64,000 nt of DNA, from the NCBI GenBank assembly GCA_021814475.1, contig JAKAIE010000002.1:1-64000 (forward strand), in the 5' to 3' direction. This document shows, piece by piece, positions 3,669 through 37,319 of this stretch (position 1 is the first letter of the stretch; every line of letters begins with the position of its first letter). The notes below the pieces were generated by a model. The model worked only from the letters and a program-made list of their open reading frames with translations. It was not told the DNA's origin and searched no databases. Position numbers and translations under genes: made by a program. This DNA comes from Nitrospirota bacterium. Lineage in GTDB: Bacteria > Nitrospirota > Thermodesulfovibrionia > Thermodesulfovibrionales > UBA6898.

Positions 3669-4988
3669 ATGCAAACGCCTCTAATAGTCACCAATGACAA
3701 TCTCTATTCATTTTACCGTTCATTCGGCAAGGCCCTGTCATGGTCTGTCGGTGATATTGTCAGGGCAGAGGTGATCAATGTGATGTCTTCCGGTTCCGTT
3801 GCGCTGCGTGTTACACAGGAGAACGGGGAGTCGGCGATTATTACCGCAAAAAGCCAGGTCCCGCTCTCAACCGGATCCCAGGTCCTTCTCAAGGTGAGCG
3901 GCGGCGAGGGGGAGATCAGGCTGCAATTAGTGTCGACGGCGACCGAAGGGTCGCTGATCAATCATCAGCCGCCCGAGACCATGCCTGCCCGGCTTTTGAA
4001 GATACTCACCGACTTTTCCGGGCTTCGCCTCAGTAGCGGGGATATTCAGCTCATCAAGGATGCCTTTGAAAAAATTCCTGACAGAATGAGGATTGCCTTT
4101 CCGGAATTCAAGGCCCTTGAGGATCTTATGCCGGAGGTTGAAGAACTGAACGCAGGCCTTCTTAAACAATCAGTGGAAGGCTCCGGCGTACTCCTGGAAA
4201 CGAAGCTGAAACTGATCGGGCGGAACATGCCCGGCACTGAGGACGGGAGTGGACCGGGTTTCATTATTGAGGGCAGTGAAGAACATGCCGACGTTCTCAG
4301 GCAGGTGATCAGCGACGATGAAGTCCTGCGGGAATTCAAACTCTCAGGAAAGGGTGAGTCCGAGATCGGCGCCACTCTGGACAAGGTGGTCAGGAAAGCG
4401 CTTGAGGGAGCAGGGAAGCAGCTGCTGGCTGAGCACGGAAAAGCTGCTGAAACAGGTGACGGCACGTTCAGGCCCGAGACGGACCAGAAGGCTGTTCTGA
4501 TCAAGCTCGGCGCTCTTCTGAAAGACAGCGACATCGCCTCTTCGCTTAAGGCCGCCGGAGTGAAGGTGCCGGAGGTCTCCGGTGCGGTCGAGAGGCTTTT
4601 GAAAAACATCGAGTTCTTTCAGTTGAGCTCTAAGGTCAATGATGTGCTGTATACCTTTCTGCCGCTGACGTGGCAGGAGATGAGGGACGGAGAGATCACC
4701 TTCAGGAAAGAAAACAGGTCCGGAGAAAGGGCATTCTCCTGTGATATCAATCTCGATCTGGCGCCCATGGGCAGGCTGTCGGTTTCCGTGACACTCTACG
4801 GCGGATCGTACCATATCACGTTCTATGCGGAAGAAGAGACGACAAAGTTGCTGATAGAGTCCGGTAAAAACCACCTGCAGCAGCAATTTGCGGATAATGG
4901 TCTGTCCCTGAGGGTTGTCAATATAAGCGGGAAACGGAACCCGGGTGCGGGCGTTGGTGAAGGTAAGGGACTCCACATCAGGGTATGA
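3669..4988 (+). CDS. FliK-like flagellar hook-length control family protein
   Basis: 439 residues. The N-terminal 90 residues form a beta-rich domain ('VGDIVRAEVINVMSSGSVALRV'). The middle is charged and helical. Residues about 325-425 resemble the Flg_hook C-terminal domain of FliK ('MGRLSVSVTLYGGSYHITFYAE' followed by a Leu-rich helix and 'GLSLRVVNIS'). FliK measures hook length and switches export specificity, but a separate long FliK may exist elsewhere, so this could be a paralog. It overlaps the next gene by ATGA. Confidence 0.72.
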   Translation: MQTPLIVTNDNLYSFYRSFGKALSWSVGDIVRAEVINVMSSGSVALRVTQENGESAIITAKSQVPLSTGSQVLLKVSGGEGEIRLQLVSTATEGSLINHQPPETMPARLLKILTDFSGLRLSSGDIQLIKDAFEKIPDRMRIAFPEFKALEDLMPEVEELNAGLLKQSVEGSGVLLETKLKLIGRNMPGTEDGSGPGFIIEGSEEHADVLRQVISDDEVLREFKLSGKGESEIGATLDKVVRKALEGAGKQLLAEHGKAAETGDGTFRPETDQKAVLIKLGALLKDSDIASSLKAAGVKVPEVSGAVERLLKNIEFFQLSSKVNDVLYTFLPLTWQEMRDGEITFRKENRSGERAFSCDINLDLAPMGRLSVSVTLYGGSYHITFYAEEETTKLLIESGKNHLQQQFADNGLSLRVVNISGKRNPGAGVGEGKGLHIRV

Positions 4989-5260
4989 GTATGAACGGGG
5001 GACAGAAAAAAGCGGCAGCGCTGAGGTATACCCACGGCCAGGACAAGGCGCCGAAACTCGTTGCCAAGGGCAGCGGAGCGGTGGCCGACAGGATCATCGA
5101 GATCGCCAGGGCGCATGGCATACACATCGAGGAGGACCGGTCACTTCTTGAGGTCCTCTCGTCCCTCGACCTCTACCAGGAGATCCCTCCGGAGCTGTAT
5201 AAGGCAGTGGCGGAGATACTGGTTTTTGTATATAAGTTGAATAAAAAGGTTGCGGGATAA
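4985..5260 (+). CDS. FlhB C-terminal-domain homolog (FlhX/YlqH type)
   Basis: 91 residues similar to the cytoplasmic domain of FlhB/YscU ('AALRYTHGQDKAPKLVAKGSGAVADRIIEIARAHGIHIEEDRSL', the usual 'A..Y....APkvvAkG....A..I...A...gi.i..d..L' pattern, then 'IPPELYKAVAEILVFVYKLN'). It has no membrane segments and no NPTH self-cleavage site. Such stand-alone proteins pair with FliK in other bacteria and are thought to substitute for the FlhB C-domain in substrate switching. The overlap with the FliK-like gene supports that. Confidence 0.87.
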   Translation: MSMNGGQKKAAALRYTHGQDKAPKLVAKGSGAVADRIIEIARAHGIHIEEDRSLLEVLSSLDLYQEIPPELYKAVAEILVFVYKLNKKVAG

Positions 5261-26142: not shown

Positions 26143-26217
26143 GGGCGATTAGCTCAGCGGGAGAGCACTCCCTTCACACGGGAGGGGTCACTGGTTCAAT
26201 CCCAGTATCGCCCACCA
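26143..26217 (+). tRNA. tRNA-Val (anticodon CAC)
   Basis: 75 bases fold into a standard cloverleaf: acceptor stem GGGCGAT / ATCGCCC, D-arm AGCTC..GAGC, anticodon stem CTCCC / GGGAG around TTCACAC (anticodon CAC), T-arm CTGG-TTCAATC-CCAG and an encoded CCA end. The 3' 28 bases form part of the attachment site of the adjacent integrated element, and the integration keeps the tRNA intact. Confidence 0.96.
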
Positions 26218-26223
26218 TAACCT
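26190..26223 (+). repeat. attL: left 34-bp direct repeat (tRNA-Val 3' end)
   Basis: Begins in the tRNA T-arm (ACTGGTTCAATC) and runs through CCA into ATAACCT. It is identical to 36614-36647. Confidence 0.92.
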
Positions 26224-29562: not shown

Positions 29563-30849
29563 TTAGCTGATAGCTCTAATTGTTTTCCCTGTATAGTTTT
29601 TGAAGCGTTTCTTGAAGGCTTGCGGCTGCTTTTTATAACCTTCAGTCTTTAGCGAATAGTCGATTTTAACACCTGTGGCAAGTACCCGCCTTACTTTCTT
29701 TTCAACAATCTCGGCTCTTACTTTGTCAGCATAGTCAAATATATCTTTTAGTGGGATCATGTCAAAGTTGTTTTCATCGGCTATTGGCGCGGCGGCAGTT
29801 GTTGCAGGTCGAGATAGGAAGGGCACTATATCGTCTGGCAATACCTCAGTTCTTTTGTAGCTCTGTGCATGCCTTACGGCAAATCTGATTATGCTTTCAA
29901 GCTCTCTGTAATTTCCCTCGTAGTTGTGGCGCAATAGCACAGAGATGCTCCCGGGGGGCAGGTGCCTACTGAATGCCGTTCCTAGATTCATTTTATCTAG
30001 TGTCGTGTCGTAAGCCCCGCAAAGGGAGCCAATTGCATCGGGGCGTTTTAGTCTTTCGTTTAGCGGAGGAAGTTCGATCTTGTACACGGGGTAGTTGAGA
30101 CGATACAGCAGGTCGGGGAGTATGTCATTAATGCTTTTTGGCTGCGTGGCAGCAAGCACCCTGAATGATACCGCAATATCTTTGTTGCTTCCGAGTCGCC
30201 GTAAACTCTTCTCTTCAATGACCCGCAATATCTTAGCCTGTAGATAGGGGTCCATCTTGCCGAGTTCGTCAAGGAATAGTGTACCGCTGTCGGCTTCTTC
30301 TATCAGCCCCTTTTTTGATGCGGTTGCACCAGAGAAAGCACCTTTTTCGAAGCCGAAGAGTTCAGACTCAAGAAGATCCTTAGGGATGGCTGCACAGTTT
30401 ATCGAGATCAGTTTATCAGAAGGCTTTTCGCTTAACCAGTGGATCATGTTGGCAAACCTTTCCTTCCCCGTTCCAGTATCCCCAGCAATGAGTAGCGATT
30501 CGTCCGAGTCAACCAGGGCGCTAAAAAGCCTTCTATCATATTCTTGAGCCAACTCCCTGAAGTTATAGAAACCAAAAGCGAAGAGGGTAACGTACTCGAT
30601 TTCGTCCAGCGATCGAAACACCCTCTTAAAATACTTGAGGAAATGATCTTTCTTTAAGCTCTTTGGGATTGCCTCATCTGAGAGGTAATGCACGATATAG
30701 AGACCGGGGGCGGCTTTATGTTCTGCATCAGGTAGCCTTAATCTTTTTGCTTCTGCCCTCAGATTATTTAACAGGTCTTCGGATGTTCTGCTTTTTCCAA
30801 GGGCATTACTTACGAGTGCCGTTACGGTGTGCAGGGCAGTCTTTTTCAT
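29563..30849 (-). CDS. sigma-54-dependent AAA+ activator (enhancer-binding protein)
   Basis: 428 residues. The N-terminal 110 residues are a regulatory region unlike REC, GAF or PAS. The AAA+ core follows: Walker A 'GDTGTGKE' (123-130), loop 1 'GAFSGA' (170-175, a GAFTGA variant), Walker B 'GTLFLDELGKM', sensor II 'LLYRLNYPVYKIELPPLNER'. A helix-turn-helix-like C-terminus ends in 'RFKNYTGKTIRAIS'. It should activate sigma-54 RNA polymerase. I favour ATG 30849 over upstream codons. A sigma-54 promoter with a paired inverted repeat lies in the divergent region, so it probably controls the replication operon. Confidence 0.92.
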   Translation of the reverse strand: MKKTALHTVTALVSNALGKSRTSEDLLNNLRAEAKRLRLPDAEHKAAPGLYIVHYLSDEAIPKSLKKDHFLKYFKRVFRSLDEIEYVTLFAFGFYNFRELAQEYDRRLFSALVDSDESLLIAGDTGTGKERFANMIHWLSEKPSDKLISINCAAIPKDLLESELFGFEKGAFSGATASKKGLIEEADSGTLFLDELGKMDPYLQAKILRVIEEKSLRRLGSNKDIAVSFRVLAATQPKSINDILPDLLYRLNYPVYKIELPPLNERLKRPDAIGSLCGAYDTTLDKMNLGTAFSRHLPPGSISVLLRHNYEGNYRELESIIRFAVRHAQSYKRTEVLPDDIVPFLSRPATTAAAPIADENNFDMIPLKDIFDYADKVRAEIVEKKVRRVLATGVKIDYSLKTEGYKKQPQAFKKRFKNYTGKTIRAIS

Positions 30850-30912
30850 TATCCTTGTCTGTTCCTTTCTCATCATAATACTAAGCACGGATATAGTATA
30901 AAAAATAAATAC

Positions 30913-30951
30913 CAATAATGTATATGTTGCACCGCTTAATTGTCATTATTG
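30913..30951. promoter_or_regulatory. Inverted repeat, likely enhancer site of the sigma-54 activator
   Basis: CAATAATG (30913-30920) and CATTATTG (30944-30951) are a perfect inverted pair with 23 bases between; their centres are 31 bases apart, about three helical turns. They lie 25-64 bases upstream of the -24 element, the usual place for an activator site. Confidence 0.65.
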
Positions 30952-31273: not shown

Positions 31274-31446
31274 GTAGATCGAAACGTTTCCCCGTCAAGC
31301 CCTACCGCCTCACCTCGAAGAAACGTAAAGACCTTGCCCGGTTGCTGCGCTTCTATGTTGACGAACTAGCAGCCGGACCCTTTACACAGCACAGGTCAAG
31401 CCTGATGGATTGTTGCGCTGCGCTCCTGGCGGAATTGGAGGGTTGA
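31270..31446 (+). CDS. Small basic element protein (58 aa)
   Basis: A 58-residue gene overlapping its neighbour by ATGA and ending six bases before the primase gene. It is rich in Lys/Arg at the N-terminus ('MSRSKRFPVKPYRLTSKKRK') and contains 'LLRFYVDELAAGPF' and a Cys pair ('MDCCAALLAEL'). The basic N-terminus suggests nucleic-acid contact; function unknown. The tight coupling supports it as a real gene. Confidence 0.62.
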   Translation: MSRSKRFPVKPYRLTSKKRKDLARLLRFYVDELAAGPFTQHRSSLMDCCAALLAELEG

Positions 31447-31451
31447 TCGGA

Positions 31452-33092
31452 ATGAATCAGCTGCAGGCCGCTCTGATGTATTCACAGAAGATGAAATATT
31501 CCGTTATCCCTGTGGGCCGGGACAAGAAGCCGCTTATCAAATGGGAGGCGTACCAGAAACAAAGAGCCAATGAGCAGGAGATCAGGGCATGGGCTAAACA
31601 ATGGCCGGATATGAATATCGGAATTGTTACCGGCGTTGTCTCAGGGCTTGCAGTAATTGACGTAGACGACGCAGAACAGGCAGACCCTATACTTGATACC
31701 CTTTTGCCGGACTCAGTGCCAATACCGAGTGCACAGACACCCTCAGGCGGTAAGCATTACTATTTCACGATCACTGATGACAAGCTTTCAAATAATGCCC
31801 GGCTGATCCCCGGTGCCGATTTAAGGGCAAACGGCGGTTATGTCGTCGCCCCTCCCTCAGTTGGTGCCAATGGCAAGCCATACGCATGGATGCAGGGCCT
31901 TAGCATTGATGAGGTTATGCCTTCGCCCCTGCCCGCCGCCTATCTGCAGGCGCTCAAGCCTGCATGTATTAATAAAAATGTATTAATAAGAGAGGGGTGT
32001 AAGGATGCTTACATAAACGACTCTCTATCCTTCAAGCAGGGAACACGCGACAATGATATATTCCACGTTGCTAACTGCCTTGTCAAAGGCGGGATGAGTG
32101 ATGCTGAAATCCTGCAAGTTCTTGAAAAGATAGCACTTTCTTGCGAGCCACCTTTCCCGACTGATGAGCTTGAAGCAAAAATTCTCAGCGCAATTAAGCG
32201 GCAGGAGCACCGGGAAATCAACTTGACGAAGGAGGTTGAACAGTGGGTTTTCCTTACAGATGGTGACTTTTCTCTTACAGATGTTTACACCCACTTACAG
32301 AACATTACCGGCCTTACAAAACCTTACAAGAACGCAGTACAGCAGATTTTTCATAGACTGAAGAGCCGTGGAGTAGTCAGGAAGATCGGCAGCAAGAATG
32401 GTGTTTACCGTCGGATAGATACTGATGATTGCCCCGATATGGATATCGAGAACGTATCCACTGAAGCTCATCCTTTGCAGTTGCCTCTCAGGTTGCGTGA
32501 ACTGGTTAAGGTTATGCCCAAGAACATCATCGTTGTTGCCGGGGCGAAGTCTGCAGGCAAAACGGCCTTTCTCATGAATACCGCATATCTCAATCGGAAT
32601 TATAAAGAAGGGGTTTATTACTACAACTCCGAGATGGGGCCGGAGGAGCTGCGTATCAGAATAGATGAATTTGAAACGCCTTTATCGGAGTGGAAGAAGA
32701 TCAGATTCAAGGAGCGAACAAGCAACTTTGCTGATGTTATCAAGCTAAATCCTGACAGCATTCACATAATAGACTTCCTCGAAATGCATGATGATTTTTT
32801 CCGGGTAGCTCAGTATATCCGCGAAGTATACGACGCTTTAGGCAAGGGCATAGCTGTTATTGCGATTCAGAAGAATGCTGGTCAAGATTATGGCTTAGGT
32901 GGTGCTCGATCAATAGAGAAGGCTCGGCTTTATCTCTCCCTCGATTACGGAAAAATCAAAATCACCGATGCAAAGATATTTGCTAGAAAGAGCGTTAACC
33001 CTAGAGGGCTTGAATTGGAATACAAATTAGCGGGTGGCTGCAAATATGTAGAAGTCGGGGACTGGCTGACACCTGGGGAGGGGAGAAGATGA
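31452..33092 (+). CDS. Primase-polymerase (prim-pol) fused to RecA-like ATPase
   Basis: 546 residues. Residues 1-185 are an archaeo-eukaryotic primase/polymerase domain: 'IPVGRDKKPLIKWEAYQ', 'IGIVTGVVSGLAVIDVDD' (Asp70, Asp72) and 'SGGKHYYF' (His102). A primase C-terminal helical bundle and a winged helix (about 265-325) follow. From residue about 350 a RecA-fold ATPase has Walker A 'GAKSAGKT' near 363. This layout is common in replication proteins of phages, satellites and integrative plasmids. GGAGGG precedes ATG 31452. It should start replication of the excised element. Confidence 0.9.
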   Translation: MNQLQAALMYSQKMKYSVIPVGRDKKPLIKWEAYQKQRANEQEIRAWAKQWPDMNIGIVTGVVSGLAVIDVDDAEQADPILDTLLPDSVPIPSAQTPSGGKHYYFTITDDKLSNNARLIPGADLRANGGYVVAPPSVGANGKPYAWMQGLSIDEVMPSPLPAAYLQALKPACINKNVLIREGCKDAYINDSLSFKQGTRDNDIFHVANCLVKGGMSDAEILQVLEKIALSCEPPFPTDELEAKILSAIKRQEHREINLTKEVEQWVFLTDGDFSLTDVYTHLQNITGLTKPYKNAVQQIFHRLKSRGVVRKIGSKNGVYRRIDTDDCPDMDIENVSTEAHPLQLPLRLRELVKVMPKNIIVVAGAKSAGKTAFLMNTAYLNRNYKEGVYYYNSEMGPEELRIRIDEFETPLSEWKKIRFKERTSNFADVIKLNPDSIHIIDFLEMHDDFFRVAQYIREVYDALGKGIAVIAIQKNAGQDYGLGGARSIEKARLYLSLDYGKIKITDAKIFARKSVNPRGLELEYKLAGGCKYVEVGDWLTPGEGRR

Positions 33093-34424: not shown

Positions 34425-35654
34425 GTGTCCGGCACCTTGACAGATATCGAGGCGATTGCTTATCTTCTCAATCAAGGGAATGAGGAGAAGATGAAGGGAA
34501 CGATCCGGCCTATCAGCAGTCAAAGCAAATGCCCTACCTGCAAAAGGCTATTTGAGGAAGTCTCTAAAATCGGGTATATCTGCAAGGAACACATGACGAT
34601 ACCGAGGAAGTTCTATATTGACCTATGGCATGAAGGGACCCGTATCAGAATCTTCACCAACAAATATGACAACCCCCTTGATAGTTATTCGGCTGCAAAG
34701 TCATTACTGAAACAGATCAACACTGACATTGATAACCGCACGTTTGACCCTACCCATTTTGTCAGAAAAGACAGGGAGAACTATTACCTTGAAGCGAGGT
34801 GGAACGAGTTTGTAAAGAAGCACACGAACCGGAAATACTCTCAGCAGTTAGATTTTGCAAAGGGATATATCTTCAGGCATTTCAGCATATCCCATGATAT
34901 CAGGGACATCAAGCAAAGTGATATTACCCTGTTTGCAGAGGCCCTGCCCGGTATGGCAAAGAAAGGGCTTGGCGGAAAGAGTATCAAGAATATTGTCGGG
35001 GTCCTGCTATCCCTGATCAACTACAATCACAGCCTGGGGGTAACATCTTCAAAGCTGACCCTGCCGAAGATCGAAGTTACGAAGAAGGTTAAGAATATCC
35101 CGGAGGTATCAGAAAGCCTGAAGATAATCAGTCATATCCCGGAAGAATGCCGGCTGATATTCCTGTTCCTGATAACGCACCTTTGCAGGCCTGCAGATGC
35201 AAGGGCATTGCAGGCCAGACACTTCGACTTCGAGAACAACACTGTCACTATTGAACTGGGCTTTTCCGGCAATGTCCTGTCATCGACAAAGACAAAGAAG
35301 CCGTACACAATCCCCTTGCATGCAGCACTGAGGGAGAGAATCCGGGACCTCTGTATTACCTGTATGCCTAATGACTTTGTTTTCACCTATGAGGGAAAGA
35401 GATGGGCAGAAGCCAAGATAAGGGAGATATGGAACGCTGCAGCAGTCAAGGCCGGATCAGTGGTCACCTTCTATAACGGGGTCAAGCATGCGTCAGTGTC
35501 TCATGCGGCGAATGAATCAGGGGATATATACAGCACGTCAAAGCTGACAGGACATACCAATATAAGGACCACCCAAATTTACGCTGATAAGACCCGCCTG
35601 GAGAAGCTGAGAAAGATACAAGAGACAATCGTTATACCTGAAGGGCTACTATAG
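34425..35654 (+). CDS. int: Tyrosine recombinase (integrase) of the element
   Basis: 409 residues. Residues 35-57 hold a small Cys/His motif ('CPTCKRLFEEVSKIGYICKEH'), an AP2-like arm-binding region follows, then a core-binding domain (about 115-210) and a catalytic domain. Catalytic Arg is in 'LITHLCRPADARAL', a 'TGHTNIRTTQIYADK' segment gives the His and the nucleophile Tyr. At the second box the usual HxxR is 'NGVK', so His and Arg appear to be Asn and Lys. The start could be GTG 34425 or ATG 34491. It should insert the element at tRNA-Val. Confidence 0.9.
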   Translation: MSGTLTDIEAIAYLLNQGNEEKMKGTIRPISSQSKCPTCKRLFEEVSKIGYICKEHMTIPRKFYIDLWHEGTRIRIFTNKYDNPLDSYSAAKSLLKQINTDIDNRTFDPTHFVRKDRENYYLEARWNEFVKKHTNRKYSQQLDFAKGYIFRHFSISHDIRDIKQSDITLFAEALPGMAKKGLGGKSIKNIVGVLLSLINYNHSLGVTSSKLTLPKIEVTKKVKNIPEVSESLKIISHIPEECRLIFLFLITHLCRPADARALQARHFDFENNTVTIELGFSGNVLSSTKTKKPYTIPLHAALRERIRDLCITCMPNDFVFTYEGKRWAEAKIREIWNAAAVKAGSVVTFYNGVKHASVSHAANESGDIYSTSKLTGHTNIRTTQIYADKTRLEKLRKIQETIVIPEGLL

Positions 35655-35702
35655 ATGGACAAAGGAGGAAAATCTATTGAGCCTGCCAGGGGTACGAGGC
35701 CT

Positions 35703-35731
35703 TGACAAATAATTGCAGGCTTGCTAAAGTA
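35703..35731 (+). promoter_or_regulatory. Promoter of a hairpin RNA upstream of the NYN gene
   Basis: TTGACA (35703-35708), 17 bases, TAAAGT (35726-35731). The start site would be near 35738, 128 bases before the NYN start codon. Confidence 0.6.
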
Positions 35732-35737
35732 TTTTCA

Positions 35738-35840
35738 CAACCCCTCGGAGTGTAAGCCTCCGAGTTTTATAGCCCCTCACTTGTTGCTTAGAGTGAGCTT
35801 TATAGTCCCGGGGAACCAAGTGGTTCCCCGCTTTTGTTTC
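35738..35840 (+). ncRNA. Candidate structured RNA: three tandem hairpins
   Basis: Three stems in about 100 bases: CTCGGAG/CTCCGAG (35744-35764), CTCAC/GTGAG (35776-35797), CGGGGAACCA/TGGTTCCCCG (35809-35830). The first two modules share the frame CCCCTC...GAG-(T/C)TTTATAG, so they look like diverged repeats; the third ends in a U-rich run. No ORF of useful size is present. It may be a small RNA, or a leader or attenuator for the NYN-nuclease gene 25 bases downstream. I recognise no named family. Confidence 0.65.
35809..35840 (+). terminator. Terminator of the hairpin RNA
   Basis: A ten-bp stem CGGGGAACCA/TGGTTCCCCG followed by CTTTTGTTTC. It lies 25 bases before the NYN start, so transcripts from the upstream promoter would either end here or read through. 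Confidence 0.8.
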
Positions 35841-35865
35841 AATTTCTAATATTGGGGATTATATC

Positions 35866-36471
35866 ATGAAAATTAAGATCTTCATTGATTTTTGGAATCT
35901 TCAACTCTCCTGGAATGAATATCATGAAAGAATTGGCTCTTCATCGAGGGTTCAAATCCCTTGGCGTACGATGCCTCAAGTATTGTGCAATCATTTAGGA
36001 CAGGGTTCTGAGTATTTTGGCACGCATGTATATGCATCAATTAATCCGAAGAATCACAAAGACCGTAAATTGAGATCATTTCTGCAAACGATGGATATGT
36101 TTCCGGGATATAAAGTAATTGTGAAAGAGCGAAAGCCAGCAAAGGCAATAAAGTGCACTGATGAAGGTTGCCGTAAAGCCATAACCCATTGTCCTCACTG
36201 TGGCAAAGAGCTTATTAGAACAGTTGAAAAAGGCGTTGATACCTCTATAGCGATTGAGCTTTTCCATTATGCGCTGGATAATGTTTATGACAAAGCTATT
36301 TTGATTTCAAACGATGCTGACTTTGTTCCTGCCATAGAGTATATACAAAGACGTGGTAACCATATTATTCATGCTGGTTTCAAGAATCAAGCATTTGAAA
36401 TTAAGAAAGCCTGCTGGGATCATATTGATTTAGAGAACATAATGCCAGAATTATTAGCGCCCTCACCGTAA
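35866..36471 (+). CDS. NYN-domain (LabA/PIN-like) nuclease with inserted zinc ribbon
   Basis: 201 residues. NYN fold: Asp8 and Asn11 in 'IFIDFWNLQLSW', Asp125 in 'KGVDTSIAIEL', Asp150 and Asp152 in 'ISNDADFVPAIEYI', the acidic residues expected to hold the metal of an RNase. A four-Cys ribbon (C97, C102, C109, C112) is inserted before Asp125. Base composition is more A/T-rich than the rest of the element, a sign of recent transfer. It is preceded by a candidate hairpin RNA and by the integrase. A defence or RNA-decay role is inferred. Confidence 0.86.
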   Translation: MKIKIFIDFWNLQLSWNEYHERIGSSSRVQIPWRTMPQVLCNHLGQGSEYFGTHVYASINPKNHKDRKLRSFLQTMDMFPGYKVIVKERKPAKAIKCTDEGCRKAITHCPHCGKELIRTVEKGVDTSIAIELFHYALDNVYDKAILISNDADFVPAIEYIQRRGNHIIHAGFKNQAFEIKKACWDHIDLENIMPELLAPSP

Positions 36472-36613: not shown

Positions 36614-36647
36614 ACTGGTTCAATCCCAGTATCGCCCACCATAACCT
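36614..36647 (+). repeat. attR: right 34-bp direct repeat
   Basis: Exact copy of 26190-26223 containing the tRNA T-arm and CCA end without the rest of the tRNA. It marks the right boundary of the element. Confidence 0.92.
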
Positions 36648-36755: not shown

Positions 36756-36848
36756 TGCATCTGCACTCAGCTATACGCCGATAAGTCCCGTCGTGAGAAG
36801 CTGAGGGAGAAACAGAGGCCGATTATCATCCCTGAGGGCCTTCTGTGA
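36756..36848 (+). pseudogene. 3' remnant of a second tyrosine integrase
   Basis: An open stretch of 30 codons ending in TGA reads 'ICTQLYADKSRREKLREKQR' and then 'PIIIPEGLL'. This matches the C-terminus of the intact integrase (TQIYADKTRLEKLRKIQ.. ..VIPEGLL), including the catalytic Tyr. A stop codon lies directly upstream. It is outside attR, so it comes from another, mostly deleted element. Confidence 0.82.
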
Positions 36849-36897
36849 TCTGGCATGTGTGTTGTATAATAGGTTTGATGACGGAGGCAATGCCAGA

Positions 36898-37119
36898 ATG
36901 ACAAATTCATATACGGCAGTATACAGCAGAATATCTTCGGGCTATATGGGGCAGTTGGTCGAGTGGCCTGAAGTGGTTACAGAGGGCAAGACCATGGAAG
37001 AGTGCAGGGCGATGCTTGTCGATGCGCTCAAGGAGATGATTGAGGCATACCGGCAGCAGGGCAAGACGTCCCTTCATAATAGAGCAAGCGTACGCAGAAT
37101 CGGAAGGGGTGCCCAATGA
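36898..37119 (+). CDS. hicB: HicB-family antitoxin-like protein
   Basis: 73 residues with the HicB fold: 'YTAVYSRISSGYMGQLVEWPEVVTEGKTMEECRAMLVDALKEMIEAYRQQGK'. Start at ATG 36898 behind GGAGG. It overlaps the next gene by ATGA. There is no C-terminal DNA-binding HTH. HicB antitoxins neutralise HicA mRNA interferases; a second hicB and a truncated hicA follow. Confidence 0.85.
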   Translation: MTNSYTAVYSRISSGYMGQLVEWPEVVTEGKTMEECRAMLVDALKEMIEAYRQQGKTSLHNRASVRRIGRGAQ

Positions 37120-37319
37120 CATTTAAGGCTATAATTCATACTGCGGAAGAAGGCGGGTGGTGGGCTGAAGTGCCGGCTATACCCGGTTGCATGACACAGG
37201 CCGACACCTGGGATGAACTGCTCGTGAACCTCAAAGAAGCGATCACGGGATGTCTTTCCGTGGATATCGATAAAGCGGTCCTGCAACCTGATGATGAGAT
37301 ACTTGAAGTTGCTGTATGA
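37116..37319 (+). CDS. hicB: HicB-like antitoxin (short)
   Basis: 67 residues: 'FKAIIHTAEEGGWWAEVPAIPGCMTQADTWDELLVNLKEAI', the typical HicB core 'GG.w..V.a.PGC.tqgdt..E'. Overlaps its neighbours by ATGA on both sides, at the 3' end with the broken hicA. It is now without an intact toxin here. Confidence 0.88.
   Translation: MTFKAIIHTAEEGGWWAEVPAIPGCMTQADTWDELLVNLKEAITGCLSVDIDKAVLQPDDEILEVAV

Follow-up and report, generated by a model that had tools for sequence, protein, structure and literature searches.

A conserved multi-hairpin RNA encoded beside NYN nuclease genes of mobile elements: a candidate RNA antitoxin for a further nuclease fold

To our knowledge, only a very small number of nuclease folds have a known RNA antitoxin. 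One of the nucleases concerned, AbiF, is regarded as an ancestor of Cas13. In type III toxin-antitoxin (TA) systems, structured RNA units are followed by a terminator and a ribonuclease gene, and the RNA binds and silences the nuclease (PMC5086642). AbiF is likewise preceded directly upstream by a non-coding RNA, composed of two structured motifs and a terminator, that silences this RNase toxin (PMC12373285). The full-text literature searched, with most subscription papers and bioRxiv outside it, describes no dedicated RNA partner for any NYN nuclease, in agreement with the initial annotation of the locus described here, which knew of no such pair.

The locus lies in the window, a 64,000-nucleotide stretch of a Nitrospirota genome, within a 10.4-kb integrative element bounded by 34-bp direct repeats. 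The left repeat, attL, is the 3' end of a tRNA-Val gene (26190..26223, + strand); the right repeat, attR, is a perfect 34-bp copy of this end (36614..36647, +), located about 140 bp past the stop codon of the NYN gene. A sigma-54 activator-like ATPase (29563-30915) and a Prim-Pol/DnaB-like protein (31410-33092) are encoded inside, and a tyrosine integrase (34425..35654, +; Pfam PF00589, 1.5e-16) and the RNA-NYN pair occupy the right end. Just past attR, at 36770-36848, is the C-terminal remnant of a second, related integrase (LYADKSRREKLREKQRPIIIPEGLL, followed by a stop); since this remnant lies outside attR, an earlier element was probably inserted at the same tRNA. Two short overlapping UPF0150/HicB-like ORFs, also outside the element (36859-37319), are possibly an antitoxin remnant.

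The nuclease of the pair is a LabA-like NYN-domain ribonuclease of 201 aa with a CX4C...CX2C zinc ribbon (35866..36471, +). Its gene is intact, and its match to Pfam PF01936 (E 1.3e-12) is over the gathering score. Using a structure model predicted from an alignment of window and genome loci, with a pLDDT of 70, low in the surroundings of the zinc ribbon, Foldseek matches the LabA-like structure 2qip (2.5e-9) and the NYN domain of MARF1 (1.4e-5). Residues D8, N11, E121, D125, D150 and D152 are invariant, and the four zinc-ribbon cysteines are conserved. Neither the window protein nor its relative at locus L014 has a match in a phage collection, and a protein scan of IMG/VR returned a single poor fragment only.

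Upstream of this gene is a predicted non-coding RNA of about 100 nt (35737..35840, +), its bounds being set just before the first CCC and at the end of the terminator. The RNA follows a sigma-70-type promoter, TTGACA-17 nt-(TG)TAAAGT (35702..35730, +), which is among the best of the region (10/12). Hairpin 1 has a CTCGGAG/CTCCGAG stem (35744..35764, +) and a loop that reads TGTAAGC in the window and TGAAAGY in homologs. Hairpin 2 places a variable stem on a conserved CTC/GAG base (35776..35797, +). Hairpin 3 (35809-35830), together with its T-rich tail, is at once the third RNA unit and the intrinsic terminator (35809..35840, +). An A/U-rich single-stranded spacer, usually ending in (C)CCC, precedes each hairpin unit. 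The minimum free energy of the segment is -37.7 kcal/mol, versus -22.3 +/- 3.4 for shuffled sequences (z -4.5; 0/200 shuffles as good). The RNA is present in a single copy in its own genome, and a search of Rfam at gathering and permissive thresholds yielded no match for it, none standing above the gathering threshold.

Most of what the initial annotation had read from the letters withstands this analysis. The promoter and the three stems are found at the coordinates above, and the frame shared between stems, given as CCCCTC...GAG-(T/C)TTTATAG, is present in the window RNA and kept in homologs as CCC(C)TC...GAG-(T/C)TTTATAG. No conserved ORF explains the segment, as claimed, because the reading frames across the RNA are interrupted by stops in homologs. 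The identification of an NYN nuclease with a zinc ribbon is sustained by the intact gene, the Pfam match and the conserved catalytic Asp/Asn residues and cysteines. The distance of 25 bases between terminator and nuclease fits the end of the T-tract, whereas the end of the terminator stem lies 35 nt from the NYN ATG.

When 84,980 species genomes were searched at the protein level, five close NYN homologs emerged. They are 63-79% identical and come from MAGs labelled Nitrospirota, Syntrophorhabdus, Ignavibacteria/Ignavibacteriae and Deltaproteobacteria; in four of the five the three-hairpin RNA lies upstream of the NYN gene. A MAFFT alignment of five RNA sequences (A6), with the structure drawn from these same sequences, has 98% of cells paired and changes on both sides in 7 of 22 pairs; all three stems show compensatory changes. 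Covariation scores 0.373, compared with 0.18 after shuffling and at most 0.114 with partners slid. When 12 RNA sequences are aligned by fitting to covariance model R1 (A9), double changes appear in 17 of 22 pairs and the score is 0.497 versus 0.159. Compensatory changes affect two of the seven pairs of hairpin 1; in hairpin 2 they affect three of seven pairs among five sequences and all seven among 12. The double changes themselves indicate directly that pairing is under selection. At one locus (L005:5001-5615), the NYN gene is frameshifted in the MAG and the RNA is intact, which may be an assembly error.

R1 was built from five loci, with L002 left out, and matches the window at 35738-35850 with 112 bits. 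At L002, whose protein is 72% identical, nothing RNA-like stands in front of the NYN gene. R1 places the RNA immediately downstream of that gene, with 88 bits (E 7e-29); it is encoded on the other strand and has its own TTGACA box. In Novacetimonas, Pararoseomonas, Aeromonas, Paracoccus and Cobetia, small cryptic plasmids encode NYN proteins of about 30% identity. At these plasmid loci R1 matches with E values of 8e-7 (L012), 2e-6 (L014), 1e-3 (L016) and 6e-3 (L013). The RNA diverges from the NYN gene at L014 and L016, with TATAAT and a plausible -35 element on the minus strand. On the Cobetia plasmid (L016, NZ_CP136696.1), the RNA and NYN match apparently occurs twice, at 624-726 and 4899-5001. 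A profile search of further genomes provided five more NYN homologs, picked on the protein alone. The models match the RNA at L116 (R1, E 8e-9), L115 (R1, 6e-4) and L118 (R2, 5e-5), and a hairpin with a terminator was identified by eye at L113. At L117 a transposase precedes the NYN gene, and the RNA is convergent behind NYN, with a weak R2 score of 0.098 and a stem that covaries with the L115 stem. The RNA at L015 likewise scores weakly by model (0.09), but its layout is clear. The protein at L006/L119 (24% identity) has no recognisable RNA near its gene. Altogether, 16 of 17 NYN genes of the window's family have the RNA adjacent. The proposal that compensatory changes should be sought in homologs, and a covariance search made next to NYN genes of other genomes, therefore came out in favour of the RNA on each point: the stems covary, the homologs carry it, and R1 recovered it at L002, which had seemed to be without one.

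The placement of the RNA relative to the gene bears on how it could act. At 12 of the 16 loci the RNA and terminator lie directly upstream of NYN on the same strand, an arrangement compatible with a cis-acting leader, that is, an attenuator or riboswitch governing transcription into NYN. However, the RNA is convergent and downstream at two loci (L002, L117) and divergent at two more (L014, L016), retaining promoter and terminator, and no alternative anti-terminator is seen. The attenuator offered as one option by the initial annotation is consequently rejected; RNA orientation rules out a leader as the sole function, and a leader role of any kind is very improbable. TTGAC is found within 60 nt upstream of the RNA at 12 of 16 loci, with an expectation of 0.05 per locus (binomial tail 8e-13). 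With a promoter of its own at either orientation and a strand that changes between loci, the RNA is an independent gene, neither leader nor attenuator. Nor is it easily seen as the antisense RNA of a type I system, blocking translation of the NYN mRNA. A small RNA does adjoin a putative toxin gene, as such a system would have it, but no more than a few bases overlap the NYN mRNA in antisense, and the duplexes predicted between the two are no better than with shuffled mRNA; we find this reading scarcely credible. The RNA is almost certainly a dedicated, independently transcribed partner of NYN. Comparison of the loci, at the level of their sequences, shows a conserved, independently promoted and terminated non-coding RNA of two to three hairpin units that is co-inherited with NYN in any orientation.

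In the genomes searched, the RNA is also specific to its neighbour. No strong match lies away from NYN in the 14 genomes or records that underlie the loci. Among 247 genomes of one phylum, R1 clears background by a wide margin at L002 alone, beside NYN; the NYN-linked match at L116 (29.5 bits) is just over background, and 17 weak matches of 18.8-27.8 bits, none with NYN by tblastn, were treated as background. A scan of IMG/VR for the motif GGAGTGAAAGYCTCC gave 70 matches, none with NYN by tblastn, and these were set aside as chance. Flanking genes vary from locus to locus and include gidA, alpha-galactosidase, URO-D, DnaJ and an aminotransferase, among others. Since these neighbours are unrelated, the minimal unit is the RNA plus NYN, with no third partner. 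The distribution of this unit is patchy, at 1-4 genomes per 250-300. Such an RNA could in principle be a regulatory small RNA with targets elsewhere, in element or plasmid replication or among host mRNAs, with NYN as its processing or turnover enzyme. A CRISPR-associated NYN trims RNA (PMC11346440), and NYN genes reside on small plasmids, several of which have the replication control RNA RNAI. Yet the RNA is common to a chromosomal element and unrelated plasmids, it has no conserved unpaired seed beyond the spacers, and RNA and NYN travel together without other genes. We regard a regulatory role of this kind as improbable.

The association extends to a wider superfamily. The HEC-09 model of PADLOC (PDLC04163, LabA-like NYN) represents the same NYN superfamily as the window protein, which matches it with E 4e-13, the best stretch covering residues 95-164 (70 residues); an E. 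coli miniplasmid protein matches HEC-09 over its full length (4.8e-49). HEC-09 genes are present in 15 of 249 Pseudomonadota genomes and also occur on plasmids, and they are often preceded by hairpins and a terminator. In Gammaproteobacteria (L158-L161, L147, L148, L150), HEC-09 NYN genes share another upstream RNA, which has a loop of the GAUUAAGUU type, stems that covary and, roughly 20-30 nt ahead of the gene, a strong terminator. The RNAs on the HEC-09 side belong to other sequence families, and R2 does not match them. The papers searched mention no RNA for HEC-09, the PADLOC papers being without text on HEC. On plasmids of 3.5-4.3 kb from E. coli and Klebsiella (L020, L021, L022), a segment of several hairpins accompanies an HEC-09 NYN; its stems differ yet pair in both types, and an RNAI replication region adjoins. 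The L021 type occurs in 12 of 5,426 E. coli genomes, always on plasmids of 3.5-5 kb. A Carboxydocella plasmid (L017:2400-2610) has its NYN gene after a terminator and about four hairpins, which are set apart by similar AAUUA-type spacers; no other version seen is as repeat-like.

Terminators are enriched in front of these genes. By a strict count, a same-strand terminator within 150 nt (9-46 nt) precedes NYN at 19 of 34 loci; among 159 other ORFs from these loci, 7 have one (p 8e-12). In a strict scan, one precedes the gene in the window and in 8 of 15 homologs (enrichment p 3e-7), and seven of ten further plasmid or phage NYN loci have one. The control ORFs indicate that 4.4% of ORFs in these loci have an upstream terminator by chance, so an unrelated terminator-bearing RNA, or the terminator of the integrase gene, could fall in front of NYN by accident. 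Conservation, covariation and co-inheritance across phyla refute chance placement, to which we give practically no credence. We lean towards the view that LabA/HEC-09-like NYN nucleases constitute a large class, as yet undescribed, of toxin or defence modules under RNA control. The class would extend from MAGs of several phyla to E. coli plasmids of 3.5 kb, and every clade would have a covarying multi-hairpin RNA of its own.

By analogy with described systems, the RNA and NYN probably form a two-part mobile module that acts like an RNA-antitoxin/nuclease-toxin pair; its mobile settings are an integrative element and small plasmids. The recurrence of the same pairing in a mobile element, in distant bacteria and on small plasmids suggests an undescribed small-RNA check on a toxic nuclease. 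Of the options in the initial annotation, an RNA partner or inhibitor of the nuclease is the one supported, by covariation, by co-occurrence at 16 of 17 genes and by strong matches solely beside NYN in the genomes searched, with inhibition itself being what we infer. In the proposed mechanism, the NYN protein would be a toxic or growth-arresting ribonuclease. The strong promoter would supply abundant RNA, and the stop at the terminator would leave little NYN mRNA. The RNA may then bind NYN through its spacer-hairpin units and block it. Silencing is the most likely role because an excess of terminated RNA before a nuclease repeats the layout of type III TA systems (PMC5086642) and AbiF (PMC12373285). 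Loss of the element or plasmid, or phage shut-off of host transcription, would deplete the RNA and free the nuclease, resulting in addiction or abortive infection. Within the spacers, the RNA precursor may itself be a substrate of NYN.

Alternatively, the RNA could be an activating or guiding cofactor, required for activity rather than inhibition, in an NYN-RNA ribonucleoprotein effector that acts, for example, against phages. The distant homology of the window protein to a PADLOC defence candidate, and the match of the E. coli plasmid relative to the same candidate, are in keeping with this idea, as is the use of a neighbouring non-coding RNA by other defence enzymes (DRT). Nevertheless, no variable guide-like segment is present, the variable parts being stems whose pairing is maintained by compensatory changes; the terminator that separates RNA and gene favours an excess of RNA, as in antitoxins; and no third gene is common to the loci. 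A cofactor role is unlikely. If the antitoxin reading holds, NYN would join ToxN and HEPN/AbiF among the nuclease folds that bacteria keep under a dedicated RNA antitoxin, and a widespread NYN-based family would mean that RNA-controlled nucleases arose repeatedly. It would also assign a function to many "NYN domain-containing" genes of small plasmids, a PADLOC defence candidate among them, and it adds RNA families absent from Rfam 15.

Comparison with known systems places the pair beside several of them. The CRISPR-associated NYN ribonuclease of B. fragilis type III is a bacterial NYN-fold enzyme of RNA processing (PMC11346440), but it is a member of a CRISPR locus and lacks a dedicated hairpin RNA; a Pfam scan found no cas domains among the genes flanking the RNA-NYN loci. 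HEC-09 (PDLC04163) shares the NYN superfamily, and many of its members have a hairpin RNA and terminator just upstream; however, it is a protein model of PADLOC-DB, and the RNAs involved come from other sequence families, such as the GAUUAAGUU-loop type. AbiF/RCd22 (HEPN nuclease and non-coding RNA, RF03085) resembles the pair in its upstream RNA, terminator and mobile-element setting, whereas the HEPN fold and the abiF RNA motif are both missing in RNA-NYN: the window has no Abi_2/HEPN match in Pfam and no RF03085 match in Rfam. Type III TA systems (ToxIN, CptIN, TenpIN, AbiQ) likewise combine a small RNA of repeated units, an intrinsic terminator and a ribonuclease gene, in plasmids, prophages and chromosomes. 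Unlike theirs, the nuclease is NYN/PIN-like with a zinc ribbon and does not have the ToxN fold; for the window protein, Pfam returns only NYN/PIN and Foldseek only NYN structures, with the ToxN/CptN/TenpN fold absent. In place of close tandem repeats, the RNA has two to three hairpin units with a shared spacer/CCC frame and dissimilar stems. The strand and order of RNA and gene also vary, 4 of 16 loci departing from the RNA-terminator-toxin operon order; a bicistronic operon with a single promoter is possible at 12 of 16 loci and impossible at those four, where the two are on opposite strands. Because both the nuclease fold and the RNA families differ, the RNA-NYN pair stands outside the type III TA and AbiF families.
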